From contig SCSX01000050.1 in the NCBI GenBank assembly GCA_004297825.1, positions 1 through 49,457 of the forward strand: DNA of 49,457 bases, given 5' to 3'. This DNA is from Spirochaetota bacterium. Its GTDB lineage: Bacteria; Spirochaetota; UBA4802; UBA5368. Shown here piece by piece: positions 5,571 to 39,162 of this stretch. A program made the translations under genes and the position numbers. Each line of letters begins with the position of its first letter. The first letter of the stretch is position 1. A model generated the notes under the pieces. The model ran no database searches, was not told where the DNA came from, and saw only the letters and a list, made by a program, of their open reading frames with translations.

Positions 5571-6203
5571 ATGCCAAAGGCCCCCCGCACAAAGGAAGAG
5601 ATCAACGCGGTCAAGGAAAACATCCTGGCCTCGGCCCTGCGTATCATCATCGAGGAGGGCTTCAAGAGCCTGAGCATGCGCAAGATCGCCGCGCGCTTGG
5701 GCGTCACCGCCACCACCATATATAACTATTTTCACAACATCGACGAACTCTATTTCATGATACGCATGCACGGGTTCGAGCTCCTGTACGGCCGCTTCGC
5801 CGATACCAACGGCGTGCACGACGGGCCCCGCGCCCGCATTCACGCGCTCGTCCGCGGCTACATCGCGTTCGGGACCGAGTACCCGGATTACTTCGACATC
5901 ATGTTCATCGACCGGACGGTCCCCAAGTACAAGGAGTGCATCGGCACCCCCCTCGAGGAGATATCCCTGCGCGAGCGCGAAACGGCGCTGAGCTCTTTCT
6001 TCCTCGTCGTCGAGACGATAAAGGACTACCACGCGGACGACCCCGCGTTTACCTACGAGGACGCGTACCGGGAGACCATACGCCTCTGGTGCGAAATGAC
6101 CGGCGTGCTCAGTCTCAGGAACAGCCGCCTTCTCTTCGAGGTGGAAACGGACGTCACGGGGCTCATGGACAAGCTGGCTGCGGAGATACTGGAAAGGTTT
6201 TGA
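5571..6203 (+). CDS. TetR/AcrR-family transcriptional regulator
   Basis: 210 aa. The N-terminal DNA-binding domain is classic: EEINAVKENILASALRII, then the helix-turn-helix MRKIAARLGVTATTIYNYF (about 45-63) and NIDELYFMI. The C-terminal domain should bind a small ligand; its identity cannot be read. A GAGAGG Shine-Dalgarno is placed 7 bases before the ATG, and a strong dyad operator lies just upstream. The next gene on the same strand, 304 bp downstream, encodes the glycyl radical enzyme, so this protein is the best candidate regulator of that locus. That link is inference from position only. Confidence 0.92.
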   Translation: MPKAPRTKEEINAVKENILASALRIIIEEGFKSLSMRKIAARLGVTATTIYNYFHNIDELYFMIRMHGFELLYGRFADTNGVHDGPRARIHALVRGYIAFGTEYPDYFDIMFIDRTVPKYKECIGTPLEEISLRERETALSSFFLVVETIKDYHADDPAFTYEDAYRETIRLWCEMTGVLSLRNSRLLFEVETDVTGLMDKLAAEILERF

Positions 6204-6237
6204 ATCCGGGATGCGCGGCAATGGAGAATACGTCGTA

Positions 6238-6340
6238 CTCCTCCCCCTTGATGGGGGAGGCCGGGTGGGGGTGAAAGAGAATCGAATCTGCATAGGCATG
6301 CTCTACACCCTCCCCTGACCCCTCCCATCGAGGGAGGGGG
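6238..6340. repeat. CCCTCCCC-type palindromic repeat, copy A
   Basis: About 103 bp with two GC-rich hairpin ends (CTCCCCCTTGATGGGGGAGG and CCCTCCCATCGAGGGAGGGG) around a variable core. Copy B at 9569-9671 is nearly identical, so two direct copies flank the glycyl radical enzyme gene. Related copies are at 11000-11143 and 18163-18275. Together with the next repeat it fills the gene-free stretch 6204-6507. Confidence 0.8.
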
Positions 6341-6352
6341 ACGTGGTAAGTA

Positions 6353-6422
6353 AACCGCTAATGCACGCGAATGAACGCGAATTTCAAAGATCATTAGCGT
6401 CTATTCGCGTTTATTCGCGGTT
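6353..6422. repeat. AACCGC-ended inverted repeat, copy 1 of 5
   Basis: About 70 bp beginning AACCGCTAATGCACGCGAAT and ending with its inverted counterpart TTATTCGCGGTT. Inside are reiterated ACGCGAAT/AACGCGAAT units. Other copies: 10880-10948, 28083-28148, 36932-37006, 39085-39162. All five are intergenic. Confidence 0.85.
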
Positions 6423-6507
6423 GTACCATTATTGTATACTTCAATATAAAGCGTCCGGAGAAAAGGTTCCGATACACAAAAGCGCGATCCGCGCGCGGGA
6501 GGAAAAC

Positions 6508-9504
6508 ATGCTGCTCTACGTCGAAAGCGAAACGAAGACCGGAAGGTCCGCGACTAACTTTCTTATAAAGACGCTCCTCAGGGTCGCGGCGGCGAACTTC
6601 AACCTGCGCCCGGCGCTCAGGGCGAAGCTGAAGAGCGTGGACGGCTGGCTGGACCTCGCCGTGGGCGTGCGGACGGAAAGCGGCTCCGTCGAATGCGGCA
6701 TCGTCTTCGCGGGCGGACGCGTATCGGTCACCGGCGGGATTCCGCCGCGCGCGGACGCGACGCTGGTCTTTCGCACCGACGCGGCGATGCGCAAACTCCT
6801 CTCCGCGACCCCCACCGACCAGATCCATATGCTCTTGAAAAGCGAGATGCGCGTCGAGGGGAGCATGGGGCAGATAAACCTGTTCTTCTATTTCCTCTCG
6901 CTTCTCATGAATGCGAAGCAGGTGAAGCTCATGGAAGGGGAGCGCGCCTCCCGCCGCAGGGAGCTCCTGAAAGCATCCCCCGCCGCCAATGCCGAATTGT
7001 CCGCCGGGCTCGCCGCCCGGAAGACGGCGCGCCTTGCCGCGCCCTCGCGGGACCGCGGTGTGAAGCACCTGGAGGACCCGTACCTCCCGGCGTACGGGCT
7101 CGCGGACTTTCCCCGGCTCGGGAAATTTCTTGACCTTCACCTCACCGTAAAACCCGAGGTCTGCCCGGAGCTGCCCGGGCTTCTCACCGCGTGGCACCGG
7201 GAGCACGGCTTCGAGCACGATTCCACGGGAAAACCCTGGAACCCCATTCTCCGCAAGGCGCACGCCTACAAGCACCTGATGGAACACAAGGAGCCCATAA
7301 TCGCGGAGGATTCGCTCCTCGCGGGGACCACGACGAGCAAACAGGTCGGCTGTGTCGTCTATCCCGAGGGAAGCGGCGGCCTCATCTGGAACGAGCTCCT
7401 CACCATCCCGCACCGCACACACAACCCGTTCGCGATATCGGCCCACACGCGGGAGCTCCTGCATCGCGACGTGTTTCCCTACTGGGCGCACCGCAACTTC
7501 CGCGAATGGGTGCGCGACAAATACGGCAACCCGCTCTGCCAGCGGATGGACGAGCGTTACGCGCTCTACTTCAACTGGAAACAGGCAACCATCTCCCACA
7601 CGATCCCCGATTTTCCGAAGATACTCGCGAAGGGCACTTCTGGCGTGATCGCGGAGATAAAGGGCGCGCTCAAAAAAAAGAATTTGGGGGCCGATACTAA
7701 GGCGGTCCTCCAGGCGATGGTGCTCACACTCGAGGGACTCGCTTCGTACTCGAAGAACCTCTCGGCGCGGGCGGCGCGGGACGCCGCCGCCGAAAAAGAC
7801 CCCGCGCGGAAAAAGGAGCTCGCCGGGCTCGCGCAGGCGTGCGCGCGCGTGGTCGAGAAGCCGGCGCGGACGCTCTACGAGGCGATGAATGCGGTCTGGA
7901 TCACCTGGATCGCGCTCCACATGGAGAGCATGAACGCGGGGCTCTCGCTCGGGAGGCTCGACCAGTGGCTGCAGCCGTACTTCGACGCGGACATGAAGAA
8001 GATCAAGGGACGGGCCGCGCGGGAGGACTATATCCGCCGCGCGATCGAGCTCATCGGCGATTTCTTCATGCGCTGCACCGATCACTTCCCCCTCACGCCG
8101 GACCTCGCGAATTTCTATTTCGGGGGAAGCTCGTCCGACCAGGCCCTCACCCTCGGGGGCATGACCCCGCAGGGACGCGACGCGGTCAACGACATGACCT
8201 ACATCTTCCTGAAAGTGACCGAGATGCTCTCCATACGCGACCCCAACGTGAACGCGCGTTACGCGCCCGGGGTCAACAGCGACGCCTACTTGAAGAGATT
8301 GTGCGAGGTGAACCTGATCACGGCGGCGACGCCCTCCATGCACAACGACGACGCGATCATCGCCTCGCTCTCGAAGCTCGGATGGGCGAAGGCGGACATC
8401 CGCAACTGGTCGGCGACCGGGTGCGTGGAGCCCACGCTCTCGGGCAAGCACATTGGGCACACGAACATGCAGATGATGAACATGGTCGCGGCGCTCGAGA
8501 TGGCGATGTGCAACGGCAGGCACCCGCTCACGGACTGGAAGCTGGGTCCGGACACGGGCGCCGTCGAAGACGGCGCGTTCGCGAGCTTCGATCAATTCTT
8601 CGCGTCCTTCACGAGGCAGTTCGCCTTCCTCATCGACAAGTCCATCGAGTACAACCACATGCTTGCGGAGGCGCACCAGTATCTGCGGCCCACGCCGCTC
8701 CTTTCGTCGCTCATCGACGGCTGCATCAGGAAGGGGCGCGACGTCACTAAGGGGGGCGCGACCTACAACAGTTCCGGCACCGCGATCATAGGGCTCGCTG
8801 ACGTGACCGATTCGCTCATGGTAATAAAGAAGCTCGTGTTCGACGAGAAAAAGATTTCCTTCGCGGAGCTCAAGAAGGCCGTCGATACGGATTTCCGCGA
8901 CAATCCCGGACTCCTGGCAATGGTGCGCAGGAAGGTCCCGCTCTTCGGCTCGGGGAGCGACGAGGCGGTCGCGATGGCGAACCGCGTCGCGAAGTGGGCG
9001 CACGACTACTACGCGTCCATCCCGCACTACCGGGGAGGCACGTACAATACGGGGTTCTGGTCCATGTCCAACCACGTGGCGTTCGGGACGCTCACGGGGG
9101 CGCTTCCCTCCGGGAGGCTCTCGGGCAAGCCCTTTACGCCCGGGCTCACCCCGCAGCCCTTCGCGTCGAAGAGCCTGCTCGACAACATCCGCGACGTGGC
9201 TCGTCTCGATCCCGTAAATTTAAATAATAACATCGCCTTCAACGTGAAGGTGGTCCCGGCCGCGACCGATACGCACGGAAAGACCGTGGACGACATGTTC
9301 TCGTACGTGAAGACCTATTTCGGCCTGGGCGGGATGCAGATGCAGATGAACGTCGTGACCTCTGCGATGCTCCGCGACGCGATGGCGCACCCGGAGAACT
9401 ACCGGAACCTGATCGTGCGTATCTCGGGCTACAATGCGTACTTCGTGACCCTCAACCGCGACATGCAGATGGAGCTCATCGAGCGCGCGGAGTACGGGAT
9501 ATGA
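6508..9504 (+). CDS. Glycyl radical enzyme with N-terminal SCP2-like domain
   Basis: 998 aa. The start at 6508 has GGGAGG five bases upstream; earlier in-frame ATGs lie inside a repeat. From about residue 190 the protein is a pyruvate-formate-lyase-type GRE: active-site motif TGCVEP with thiyl Cys639 and the glutamate two residues on, and the C-terminal radical loop RISGYNAYF with Gly974, 24 residues from the end. A single Cys and GCVEP argue for the dehydratase/lyase/decarboxylase branch rather than pyruvate formate-lyase, which has Cys-Cys. GREs of this branch are usually about 790-850 aa. The extra N-terminus (about 44-135: GWLDLAVGVR, RADATLVF, MRVEGSM) has the pattern of an SCP2 sterol-carrier/lipid-binding domain. 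The substrate is therefore probably hydrophobic or an acyl thioester (inference). The activase gene is next on the same strand. Oxygen-sensitive, cytoplasmic. Confidence 0.92.
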   Translation: MLLYVESETKTGRSATNFLIKTLLRVAAANFNLRPALRAKLKSVDGWLDLAVGVRTESGSVECGIVFAGGRVSVTGGIPPRADATLVFRTDAAMRKLLSATPTDQIHMLLKSEMRVEGSMGQINLFFYFLSLLMNAKQVKLMEGERASRRRELLKASPAANAELSAGLAARKTARLAAPSRDRGVKHLEDPYLPAYGLADFPRLGKFLDLHLTVKPEVCPELPGLLTAWHREHGFEHDSTGKPWNPILRKAHAYKHLMEHKEPIIAEDSLLAGTTTSKQVGCVVYPEGSGGLIWNELLTIPHRTHNPFAISAHTRELLHRDVFPYWAHRNFREWVRDKYGNPLCQRMDERYALYFNWKQATISHTIPDFPKILAKGTSGVIAEIKGALKKKNLGADTKAVLQAMVLTLEGLASYSKNLSARAARDAAAEKDPARKKELAGLAQACARVVEKPARTLYEAMNAVWITWIALHMESMNAGLSLGRLDQWLQPYFDADMKKIKGRAAREDYIRRAIELIGDFFMRCTDHFPLTPDLANFYFGGSSSDQALTLGGMTPQGRDAVNDMTYIFLKVTEMLSIRDPNVNARYAPGVNSDAYLKRLCEVNLITAATPSMHNDDAIIASLSKLGWAKADIRNWSATGCVEPTLSGKHIGHTNMQMMNMVAALEMAMCNGRHPLTDWKLGPDTGAVEDGAFASFDQFFASFTRQFAFLIDKSIEYNHMLAEAHQYLRPTPLLSSLIDGCIRKGRDVTKGGATYNSSGTAIIGLADVTDSLMVIKKLVFDEKKISFAELKKAVDTDFRDNPGLLAMVRRKVPLFGSGSDEAVAMANRVAKWAHDYYASIPHYRGGTYNTGFWSMSNHVAFGTLTGALPSGRLSGKPFTPGLTPQPFASKSLLDNIRDVARLDPVNLNNNIAFNVKVVPAATDTHGKTVDDMFSYVKTYFGLGGMQMQMNVVTSAMLRDAMAHPENYRNLIVRISGYNAYFVTLNRDMQMELIERAEYGI

Positions 9505-9568
9505 ACCCTTTGCCCCCCTCGAGAAAAGGGGCGGCAGGCTAAGCGTATCATGAGATGGGGACGCCGTT

Positions 9569-9671
9569 CTCCTCCCCCTTGATGGGGGAGGCTGGGTGGG
9601 GGTGAAAGAGCATCTAACATGCACAGGCATACTCTACACCCTCCCCTGACCCCTCCCGTCGAGGGAGGGGG
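9569..9671. repeat. CCCTCCCC-type palindromic repeat, copy B
   Basis: Same orientation and nearly the same sequence as copy A at 6238-6340, differing mainly in the central ~20 bases. It lies in the gene-free stretch 9505-9890 between the glycyl radical enzyme and its activase. Apart from this repeat and the 28-bp repeat at 9750, nothing else is recognised there. Confidence 0.8.
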
Positions 9672-9749
9672 ATGTGGCAGAATGCTATTGGCAGATAAGC
9701 TTCTCGTGGGAGAGATGGAATGTGATGAAGAAGATAATGATGAGAAAGA

Positions 9750-9890: not shown

Positions 9891-10820
9891 ATGAGAAATG
9901 ATACCATAAAAACCCCCCTCGTCCTGGAAATCCGCGGGAACTCGCTGGATGACGGGCCGGGTATCCGCTCGGTGGTGTTCTTCAAGGGATGCCCGCTCTC
10001 GTGCGCCTGGTGCCACAATCCGGAGAGCAAGAGCGTCCACGAGGAGATCGCCTACGACGCGCGCGAGTGCGTCGGGTGCGATACCTGCATACCCCTGTGC
10101 GGGCGAAACGCGCTTTCCCGCAAAAACGCGGGTTTCATCGACCGGAAGAAATGCGATCTCTGCTTCGCGTGCGCCCAGGCCTGTCCCTCGGGCGCGCTCG
10201 CGCGGGTCGGCAGGGAGATGTCCGTCGGCGAAATTACGGAAGCGCTCCTCAGGGACAAGCCGTTCTACGATACCTCCGGCGGCGGGGTGACGCTCTCGGG
10301 GGGCGAGCCCGCGCTCTTCATCGAGTTCGTATCGGCACTGCTCGCGATGCTCAGGAAAAAAAGAGTCCATACCCTCATCGAGACGAGCGGTTTCTTCGAT
10401 TATTCTAATTTCGCCCAACGGGTGCTTTCGAACGTGGACGCGATCTACTTCGACATCAAGCTTATCGATGAATCGACCCACTGGAAGTACGCGGGCGTCC
10501 CGAATGCGCGCATCCTGGAAAACTTCCGGCGCCTTCTCGCGGACGCTGCCCGCGCGAAGGTCGAGCTCCTTCCGCGCACGCCCCTCGTGCCCGGCATCAC
10601 CGACACGGATTCCAATTTGACCGGCATCGCGGATTTCCTCGCGGGACTCGGGGTGAAGAAGGCGGCGCTCATGCAGTACAACCCGCTCTGGCACGACAAG
10701 GCCGCGAAGATCGGCGCGGCGGACCGTTACGCGAACGACCCCGCGATGGGCGCGTGGATGGATAAGCAGAATCTGCGGCGCTGCCGCGATATATTCAAAG
10801 CGAAGGGAATCGAAACTTGA
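9891..10820 (+). CDS. Glycyl radical enzyme activase (radical SAM)
   Basis: 309 aa. The radical SAM motif CX3CX2C is at Cys34, 38 and 41 (GCPLSCAWCHNPES). A ferredoxin-like insert with two CX2CX2CX3C clusters follows (Cys60/63/66/70 and Cys88/91/94/98), as in activases of the glycerol dehydratase/choline lyase branch and unlike the shorter PFL activase. GGGVTLSGGEP is the SAM-binding signature. It should abstract hydrogen from Gly974 of the upstream enzyme. No good Shine-Dalgarno is seen close to the ATG (a GAGGAATT lies about 27 bases upstream), so expression may depend on context or the start may be slightly off. It is separated from the GRE by 386 bp of repeats, which is unusually far for a GRE/activase pair. 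Confidence 0.93.
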   Translation: MRNDTIKTPLVLEIRGNSLDDGPGIRSVVFFKGCPLSCAWCHNPESKSVHEEIAYDARECVGCDTCIPLCGRNALSRKNAGFIDRKKCDLCFACAQACPSGALARVGREMSVGEITEALLRDKPFYDTSGGGVTLSGGEPALFIEFVSALLAMLRKKRVHTLIETSGFFDYSNFAQRVLSNVDAIYFDIKLIDESTHWKYAGVPNARILENFRRLLADAARAKVELLPRTPLVPGITDTDSNLTGIADFLAGLGVKKAALMQYNPLWHDKAAKIGAADRYANDPAMGAWMDKQNLRRCRDIFKAKGIET

Positions 10821-10879: not shown

Positions 10880-10948
10880 AACCGCGAATGAGCGCGAATG
10901 AACGCGAATTAAAAAAATATTGGCGTTCATTCGCGTCTATTTGCGGTT
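10880..10948. repeat. AACCGC-ended inverted repeat, copy 2 of 5
   Basis: Begins AACCGCGAATGAGCGCGAAT and ends TTCGCGTCTATTTGCGGTT, the arms being inverted and separated by an A/T-rich loop. Same family as 6353-6422. Confidence 0.85.
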
Positions 10949-11182: not shown

Positions 11183-12529
11183 ATGAAAAAGAGTCCGGTT
11201 AAGAAGAAGGCGAAGGGGAGCGAAAAGACGGCGGGAAAGGCGAAGCCCCGCGTGATCGTGAGGCTCTGCGACGAGTACGATCCCCCCCGCATCCAGGAGA
11301 TCATCCGCGAGTCCATGGATGAGCTGGGCATGAAGCCCCGCGGCAAGGTGTTCATCAAGCCGAATGTGGTATCGGCGAATAAAAACTACATTCACAATTC
11401 TTTCACCGAGCCCTCGGTCGTGGAATCGGCCATTAAGGTCCTGAAAGGCCAGGGGGTGCCCGATATCACCGTGGGCGAATCGGGCGGGTTCGGCATTCCG
11501 TCGCGCCTGTTCCTGAAAGAAGCGGGCTACCTCGAGATGGGGGCGCGCCTGGGCGTGAGGGTCATCGACCTGAACGAGCACCCCGTGGACCGCGTGGAGC
11601 TCAAGAAAGGGAAGTGGCACAAATCGATGCTCCTCGCGCGCGACATTAAAGACGCCGATTTCAAGATCTGGATGCCCAAGCTCAAGTTCCACATCTTCGC
11701 CCAGGTCACGCACGCGCTCAAGCTCAACATCGGGATCCTCCAGCACGCGGAGCGCATGCTCTTCCACGATCACCGCATCCACGAGAAGATCGTCGACCTG
11801 CTCGAGGTCGGGTACCCCGATCTCGTGATCACCGACGCGATCGACATCACCTACGGGTATGAATCGGCGCCGTATCCCGTGCACCTGGGGGCGCTCATCA
11901 TCGCGAACGACCCGGTCGCCGCCGACACCGTGACGGCGCACATCATGGGCTACAGGCCGGAGGAGGTGCAGCACCTCAAGATCGCGTCCCAGCGCGGCTA
12001 CGGTTCGATCAGCCTTAAAGACATATCGGTCGAGGGCGATGCCGACATCGACAAACTTCGCGCGAAGCCCAAGGGCCAGACGCGCCTCTTCCAGCACCTG
12101 AACGAGCTCGATACCCCCATACAATTCTACACCGGCCATGCGCCCGACACCAGCGTACTCTGCGACGGCGGGTGCGAGGGCGCGGTGAAGGGCTGCCTGG
12201 GCACCATAGAGAAACGGCGTCCCGGCTCCCTGAAAAAAGCGAAGAAGGGCGCGATCGTGCAGGGAATCTACAAGGGCGACGTCATCATGCCCGACGGTCC
12301 CGTGCTCCTTCTGGGTGACTGCACCCGCGTGGAAGGCAAACTCGATGCAAAGAAGATTTATCGCGTCAAGGGGTGTCCTATCGGGGTGAAGGTGCTGTTC
12401 ATGAAGATCCCGTTCCTGTTCGGCCTTCCCAACCCCATGTTCGACACGCGCGACTCGGTGCTCTTTGTCTACAACAGCGTGGTGAAGGGAATGAGCATCG
12501 CGTTGAACAGGTACGTGCTGAGAAGGTAA
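11183..12529 (+). CDS. DUF362-family protein
   Basis: 448 aa with an AGGAGGG Shine-Dalgarno before the ATG. After a lysine-rich N-terminus (about 20 residues), the sequence follows the DUF362 pattern: GKVFIKPNVVSANK, TEPSVVESAIKVL, ITVGESGG, MPKLKFHIFAQVTHALKLNIG, then a C-terminal region with clustered cysteines (CDGGCEGAVKGC, DCTRVEG, KGCPIG). The cysteines could bind a metal or Fe-S cluster, but the classic two-ferredoxin form is absent. The molecular function of DUF362 is unknown. It is co-directional with the GRE and activase, 362 bp after the latter, so membership of that locus is plausible but unproved. Confidence 0.85.
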   Translation: MKKSPVKKKAKGSEKTAGKAKPRVIVRLCDEYDPPRIQEIIRESMDELGMKPRGKVFIKPNVVSANKNYIHNSFTEPSVVESAIKVLKGQGVPDITVGESGGFGIPSRLFLKEAGYLEMGARLGVRVIDLNEHPVDRVELKKGKWHKSMLLARDIKDADFKIWMPKLKFHIFAQVTHALKLNIGILQHAERMLFHDHRIHEKIVDLLEVGYPDLVITDAIDITYGYESAPYPVHLGALIIANDPVAADTVTAHIMGYRPEEVQHLKIASQRGYGSISLKDISVEGDADIDKLRAKPKGQTRLFQHLNELDTPIQFYTGHAPDTSVLCDGGCEGAVKGCLGTIEKRRPGSLKKAKKGAIVQGIYKGDVIMPDGPVLLLGDCTRVEGKLDAKKIYRVKGCPIGVKVLFMKIPFLFGLPNPMFDTRDSVLFVYNSVVKGMSIALNRYVLRR

Positions 12530-28082: not shown

Positions 28083-28148
28083 AACCGCGAATAGACGCGA
28101 ATAAACGCTAATATTTTGATTCGCGTTCATTCGCGTGCATTCGCGGTT
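28083..28148. repeat. AACCGC-ended inverted repeat, copy 3 of 5
   Basis: AACCGCGAATAGACGCGAAT at the left and TTCATTCGCGTGCATTCGCGGTT at the right (given as inverted arms), ~66 bp, in the gap between the hydrolase and MtfA-like genes. Confidence 0.85.
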
Positions 28149-36931: not shown

Positions 36932-37006
36932 AACCGCGAATATACGCGAATAAACGCTAATGTTCGCAATTTAATGATTCGCGTTCATTCGCGTCAATTC
37001 GCGGTT
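36932..37006. repeat. AACCGC-ended inverted repeat, copy 4 of 5
   Basis: ~75 bp, AACCGCGAATATACGCGAAT at the left and TTCGCGTCAATTCGCGGTT at the right, between two converging genes (cardiolipin synthase-like and EIIA/zinc ribbon). Confidence 0.85.
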
Positions 37007-38973: not shown

Positions 38974-39084
38974 AATGAATTTCGACCTGCCGGGAACGGC
39001 GTCCCAGTGGACGGGTGGGGATGCGGCCTGTTCGTGAAAGCCCGGAATGGATCGTCATGCTTTGTCCTCCAAATGAAGGAAACG

Positions 39085-39162
39085 ACCGCGAATAGACGCG
39101 AATAGACGCGAATAAACGCGAATGATAGTATGATTCGCGTTCGTTAGCGTGCATTGGCGGTT
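39085..39162. repeat. AACCGC-ended inverted repeat, copy 5 of 5
   Basis: Starts GACCGCGAATAGACGCGAAT with the ATAGACGCGA unit repeated two to three times in tandem, and ends GTGCATTGGCGGTT. The surrounding gene-free stretch 38974-39384 otherwise holds only the presumed flagellar promoter, for which I find no convincing boxes. Confidence 0.8.

Follow-up and report, generated by a model that had tools for sequence, protein, structure and literature searches.

The window, the whole stretch of 49,457 nucleotides analysed here, comes from an anaerobic bacterium and encodes an oxygen-sensitive glycyl radical enzyme (GRE) whose N-terminal extension is predicted to fold like an SCP2 (sterol carrier protein) domain. 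The enzyme is called SCP2-GRE below. Its gene lies between those of a TetR-family regulator and a radical SAM activating enzyme, and the following features were assigned at the locus:

5571..6203, plus strand: TetR-family regulator, 210 aa, upstream of the GRE gene (PF00440, E 6.5e-13; PF13305, E 1.5e-6)
6497..6502, plus strand: ribosome-binding site GGGAGG, read in the sequence, preceding ATG 6508
6508..9504, plus strand: SCP2-GRE, 998 aa (open frame, Pfam, alignment and full-length model)
6541..6975, plus strand: predicted SCP2-fold domain, residues 12-156 (PF02036 in relatives; model and Foldseek)
6976..7104, plus strand: linker, residues 157-199 (secondary structure of the model, alignment)
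7105..9501, plus strand: GRE core, residues 200-998 (PF02901, PF01228; best Foldseek match glycerol dehydratase)
7597..7599, plus strand: His364, aligned with His164 of glycerol dehydratase
8128..8142, plus strand: Ser541-Ser-Ser-Asp-Gln545, clade signature near the active site (alignment)
8422..8430, plus strand: Cys639-Val-Glu641, thiyl cysteine and putative general base (Cys and Glu invariant)
8461..8466, plus strand: Thr652-Asn653, aligned with His446-Asp447 of glycerol dehydratase
9427..9429, plus strand: glycyl radical site Gly974 (invariant in the alignment)
9891..10820, plus strand: radical SAM GRE-activating enzyme, 309 aa, a conserved neighbour (TIGR02494, 272 bits against a cut-off of 174)
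11183..12529, plus strand: DUF362 protein, 448 aa, possibly accessory (PF04015, E 6.1e-39)

An earlier sequence-only reading had named the frame 6508-9504, Cys639 in TGCVEP, Gly974 in RISGYNAYF and an N-terminal pattern of RADATLVF and MRVEGSM, and its motifs and numbering proved correct. A longer alternative frame begins at GTG 6343 and would encode 1053 aa. ATG 6508 was accepted as the start because it is preceded by GGGAGG and intergenic repeats lie upstream of it. These repeats belong to two families, both of which sit between genes of the GRE cassette. One is a palindromic interspersed repeat (AACCGCGAATG.ACGCGAAT ... ATTCGCGGTT) found at five places (6353-6424, 10880-10948, 28083-28148, 36932-37006 and 39084-39162), the other occurs at 6230-6346 and 9561-9677 in copies that are 91% alike. 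A search of the window with Rfam yielded one tRNA only.

The protein carries the sequence marks of a PFL-like GRE. PF02901 matched residues 226-860 with an E-value of 1.1e-162 (543.5 bits; cut-off 24.3) and PF01228 residues 877-980 with 1.5e-22 (80.6 bits; cut-off 22.2). Cys639 and Gly974 were invariant in an alignment of 58 GRE sequences, and a dedicated radical SAM activase is encoded next to the enzyme.

About 190 residues precede the GRE core, and the RADATLVF and MRVEGSM pattern within them is conserved in all complete relatives. The full-length protein gave no SCP2 match in hmmscan against Pfam at E-values up to 1, nor did a profile of the N-terminal region match any PDB sequence in hmmsearch; the SCP2 fold was revealed only by member-by-member scanning and by structure comparison. 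PF02036 was matched weakly by the isolated domain of the window protein (E 0.048; 14.4 bits, under the cut-off of 21.3) and at some level by 23 out of 59 relatives scanned singly, the best with an E-value of 1.9e-5. It was the only Pfam family to recur among the N-termini of the members, the other families shown each matching one member. In the genome search its cut-off was exceeded by one relative, the 1027-aa fused GRE of genome G139, with 26.3 bits. The alkylsulfatase C-terminal family PF14864, which the sequence-only reading had named beside PF02036, was absent from the list of families matching the window domain at E-values up to 10, although the SCP2-like domain of alkylsulfatases does match structurally.

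AlphaFold2, supplied with an alignment, gave a model of the domain (pLDDT 84, pTM 0.64) in which the strands and helices follow an SCP2-like order, with a helix at residues 15-33, strands at 50-88 and 114-118 and further helices at 91-110 and 120-156. When this predicted domain was compared with the PDB by Foldseek, the best 46 matches were all SCP2 folds, led by UbiJ, Archaeoglobus fulgidus AF1534 and the SCP2-like domain of alkylsulfatases. When profiles were compared, SCP2 domains from elsewhere in the genome matched the N-terminal domain with an E-value of 2.9e-5 over 79 columns at a modest probability of 74%. The matches of the relatives and the predicted fold together settle the assignment of the N-terminal domain to the SCP2 fold, and the earlier domain call was borne out. 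A domain of this kind may bind a lipid or another hydrophobic ligand. Elsewhere in the same genome (contigs C8 and C74; L040, L044), two SCP2 copies per protein were seen in products of genes directly behind a thiolase-like gene.

The full-length AlphaFold2 model, built from the 58-sequence alignment, was confident (pLDDT 91.6, pTM 0.92). Among its Foldseek matches, glycerol dehydratase led with a TMt of 0.94; propanediol dehydratases, HypD and CutC, likewise eliminases, came next. Three active-site subtypes were distinguished among the fused enzymes, and the SCP2 domain is kept in all of them. The main subtype, to which the window protein belongs, varies little and comprises His364, Ala477-Gly478, Ser-Ser-Ser-Asp-Gln at 541-545, Cys639-Val-Glu641, Thr652-Asn653 and a Ser-Gly-Tyr-Asn radical loop. 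A second one has Ser-Gln-Ser-Glu-Thr together with Cys-Val-Glu-Ile (L201 and both copies of L203, with L200 close to them), and a third has Glu at position 364 and Asp at 477 (L005, L088, L124 and L130). His364 is kept in most members.

A scan of the collection found 67 loci, and the architecture is complete in most of them. With duplicates removed, the analysis comprised 74 distinct fused proteins in all; the fusion is thus more than a chance event. Their records are labelled Spirochaetota, Desulfobacterota (Desulfobacteraceae, Syntrophaceae, Smithella), Actinomycetota, Chloroflexota, Myxococcota and Pseudomonadota (a gammaproteobacterium), but most of these records are MAGs, so that the label of a single contig may err. 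The cultured strain Desulfoluna limicola ASN36 has four fused copies in its complete genome (L111, L200-L202). In the phylum of the window, 22 of 296 genomes matched the N-terminal query, and in its order 20 of 46 encode the fused enzyme. A second fused copy was found in the window's own genome (C12, L005). A genome titled Desulfosudis oleivorans (L203:4357-11278) has a TetR gene followed by two tandem SCP2-GREs with a single activase between them.

A tree was calculated from 69 GRE cores in quick mode, without bootstrap and without the SCP2 columns, its references being core segments taken from printed alignments. A branch with SH-aLRT support of 100% separates all 34 fused proteins from the rest. 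The stem of the fused clade measured 1.48 changes per column, the distribution of SCP2 on the tree needs one change, and none of the seven solved reference GREs lay inside the clade. SCP2 is present in every complete clade member and in no sampled GRE outside. It is missing from three proteins at 72-78% identity (L084, L085, L095), which are cut by contig ends or a broken frame. The SCP2-GRE also scored far under every equivalog cut-off of NCBIfam. The fused enzymes therefore do not group with a GRE of defined substrate, as would have told against the sequence-only reading, and the fusion that it had seen in a single protein recurs in records of several phyla.

The usual cassette consists of TetR regulator, GRE and activase, often with an SDR oxidoreductase. 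Of 29 relatives with enough flanking DNA, 24 had the activase nearby and 16 had a TetR gene upstream. SDR genes made up 16 of 221 genes within 2.5 kb of the GRE gene and one of 256 farther off (Fisher p 5e-5, an optimistic value, as related loci are not independent and an SDR occurs at only part of them). All 16 share the strand of the GRE gene. A few further loci have Zn- and Fe-dependent alcohol dehydrogenases. Such partners would make sense if the product were a carbonyl or the substrate an alcohol. Within the order, the number of acyl-CoA dehydrogenases was weakly linked to the fused enzyme (p 0.01, or 0.03 per Mb, with ancestry ignored).

Several neighbours deserve mention on their own account. 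The DUF362 gene recurs at few loci. One copy (L069:5527-6939), 56% identical to that of the window, lies on a Desulfobacterales contig between activase and GRE, directly before the latter; another, 87% identical, neighbours the SCP2-GRE of a close relative (L097:2662-4011). Directly behind one SCP2-GRE, a 614-aa SDR is encoded (L064:9966-11810) of which residues 337-605 match classical SDRs; its extra N-terminal sequence begins like an extended SDR, and it is possibly a double SDR. At a single locus (L098:10479-13733), an FGGY kinase and a GlpD-like dehydrogenase follow GRE and activase. The kinase was nearest to xylulokinase (265 against 112 bits) and its identification as glycerol kinase was rejected, although the next gene is GlpD-like. 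A sphingolipid reading was likewise discarded: although one neighbouring SDR matches the 3-ketodihydrosphingosine reductase TSC10 (8jat, E 1.6e-22), its matches to many other SDRs were better. Extended SDRs matched OleD- and HpnA-like models far under cut-off and name no pathway. A different GRE fusion was observed in the window's genome (L007:541-3981, contig C89), where a single frame holds a radical SAM activase (about residues 69-305, CNLRCAWC) and a GRE (about 319-1144, GCVEP, RVAGYCAYF). Frames of this kind, about 1100-1150 aa long, also occur in G112 (C5), G166 (C3), G139 (C1) and G042 (C7), with similar-length frames in G299 and G300. An assembly error is unlikely because the fusion recurs in several genomes.

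In GREs, the activase makes a glycyl radical, a cysteine abstracts hydrogen from the substrate, and the Glu of Cys-X-Glu serves as base in elimination. For the SCP2-GRE we propose, at roughly even confidence, an eliminase-type reaction on an amphiphile, at its polar head, while the SCP2 domain holds the tail; the product would be a carbonyl. The adjacent activase would put the radical on Gly974, which would pass it to Cys639. The Cys639 thiyl would then take a hydrogen from the polar head, most likely from an OH-bearing carbon, and Glu641 with His364 would help a neighbouring group to depart as water, amine or alkoxide, so that an aldehyde or ketone remains. By gripping the aliphatic tail, the SCP2 domain could present an insoluble molecule to the buried radical site. 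The TetR regulator may respond to a related ligand. At loci that have an SDR or alcohol dehydrogenase, this enzyme would reduce or oxidise the carbonyl. A tail shared by substrates with varied head groups would explain why SCP2 is kept across the three active-site subtypes, as is expected of a domain that serves the tail. Elimination at the head of an amphiphile is suggested by GRE chemistry together with precedents for SCP2 domains acting with enzymes of aliphatic substrates: in alkylsulfatases an SCP2-like domain is joined to such an enzyme (PMC5426288), and UbiJ accompanies such enzymes in ubiquinone synthesis (PMC9499169). The earlier suggestion of a hydrophobic substrate, or of an amphiphilic one, is reasonable in view of the fused domain and the oxidoreductase neighbours, while acyl-CoA in particular found no support.

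The domain could also be structural, regulatory or membrane-attaching and have no part in substrate handling, with the GRE acting on a small polar molecule like its relatives. Conserved polar residues do line the active site in the alignment, and small molecules are the substrates of the most similar solved GREs. Eis-type acetyltransferases have a C-terminal domain that is SCP2-like and not known as a lipid carrier, and enzymes of this type appear among the weak Foldseek matches (4my3, probability 0.94). The better matches, however, were true lipid-carrier SCP2 domains and the alkylsulfatase domain. The hydrophobic positions of the fold are conserved, including the long helix at 120-134, and the restriction of the domain to one clade of the sampled GREs also argues against a role apart from the substrate, which we consider rather unlikely.

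Slightly less probable still is a hydrophobic substrate that undergoes decarboxylation, C-C bond formation or another radical reaction in a core that is not an eliminase. Cys-X-Glu is also found in GRE decarboxylases, e.g. 4-hydroxyphenylacetate decarboxylase, and therefore does not prove elimination. The signature departs from that of known diol dehydratases, with glycerol dehydratase Ser282 and Asp447 replaced by Gly and Asn, which speaks against a dehydratase-like elimination, and the clade stem is long. Against this, eliminases rank first structurally, and arylacetate decarboxylase (7e7l), BssA (4pkf, TMt 0.78) and MasD (9o8u, TMt 0.85) came lower in Foldseek. Two synthase-like proteins from a Smithella genome (L186, L192) have Cys-Met-Gln instead of Cys-Val-Glu and are placed elsewhere in the tree. 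It is highly improbable that the protein is one of the known GREs (diol dehydratase, CutC or HypD) that has gained a domain and kept its substrate. Its core is about 27-31% identical to theirs and structurally very similar, but its scores are far under the NCBIfam cut-offs for HypD (NF043068, 385 against 1100 bits), CutC (TIGR04394, 382 against 1050) and the PFL2-3 subfamily (495 against 678), key specificity residues differ, and its strongly supported clade holds no characterised enzyme.

Elimination on an amphiphile head, our preferred reading, may be extended tentatively to a new class of radical eliminases that cleave or dehydrate the heads of amphiphilic lipids. Their paralogues would be adapted to different head groups, and they would be spread over several phyla of anaerobes from sediments and digesters. 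We regard this wider proposal as possible but distinctly less secure. Its candidate substrates would include, for example, 1-O-alkylglycerol, a long-chain vicinal diol or a sphingoid-type amino alcohol. If it holds true, such enzymes could provide a step that is missing from the oxygen-independent degradation of ether or other recalcitrant lipids. Most GREs of known substrate act on small polar molecules, and we know of no lipid-carrier domain in hydrocarbon-activating GREs. A clade in several phyla that has SCP2 in every complete member points to radical chemistry on insoluble substrates. The fusion makes such chemistry on lipid-like substrates testable in anaerobes, with a concrete gene set of TetR, GRE, activase and often SDR, and in Desulfoluna limicola a complete genome with four paralogues allows the substrate question to be addressed directly. 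GREs and SCP2 domains are each known. Their fusion, the clade and the cassette were found neither among the curated NCBIfam equivalogs nor in the literature searched for GRE with SCP2 or sterol carrier protein, which took in few subscription papers or bioRxiv preprints and is no proof of novelty.

Among known systems, B12-independent glycerol dehydratase (1r8w) and the 1,2-propanediol dehydratases (5i2g, 9rco) share their core fold with the SCP2-GRE (TMt 0.93-0.94). Cys433, Glu435 and His164 of glycerol dehydratase correspond to Cys639, Glu641 and His364, whereas its Ser282, Tyr339 and Asp447 are replaced by Gly478, Asp and Asn653. These dehydratases have no SCP2 domain, share about 30% identity with the SCP2-GRE and lie outside its clade. 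Choline TMA-lyase CutC (5fau, 9f3w) has in common with it the fold, Gly at the place of Ser282 and Thr at that of CutC Thr502, but carries Asp216 in place of His364. In the long CutC (9f3w chain A), the N-terminal extension (residues 24-288) aligns with the GRE profile and is by appearance a partial second GRE copy, not SCP2. HypD is similar in fold (TMt 0.94) and gave the best NCBIfam equivalog score of all, but has a different signature and lies outside the clade of the fused enzymes. The GRE of A. fulgidus (2f3o), for which we know of no agreed function, falls into the same larger part of the tree with 91% support, at an unresolved fork and on a long branch; it shares Gln545, Thr548 and Asn580 but lacks an SCP2 domain. 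The X-succinate synthases BssA and MasD are not the closest relatives judging by structural scores, which were under those of the eliminases; in the tree, the synthase-like L186 and L192 stood in for BssA and MasD themselves.

For the N-terminal domain, UbiJ SCP2 (6h6p) and AF1534 (3bn8) were the best structural matches over residues 12-200, with E-values of 1.2e-6 and 7.9e-6 and a probability of 1.00. Both are stand-alone or accessory proteins with no GRE fusion and only 12-22% identical to the SCP2-fold domain. The alkylsulfatases SdsA1, Pisa1 and SdsAP (2cfu, 2yhe, 4nur) are hydrolases of the metallo-beta-lactamase fold that carry the SCP2-like domain at the C-terminus and employ no radical chemistry; still, in joining a catalytic to an SCP2-like domain for a substrate with an alkyl chain they offer the closest working analogy to the SCP2-GRE.
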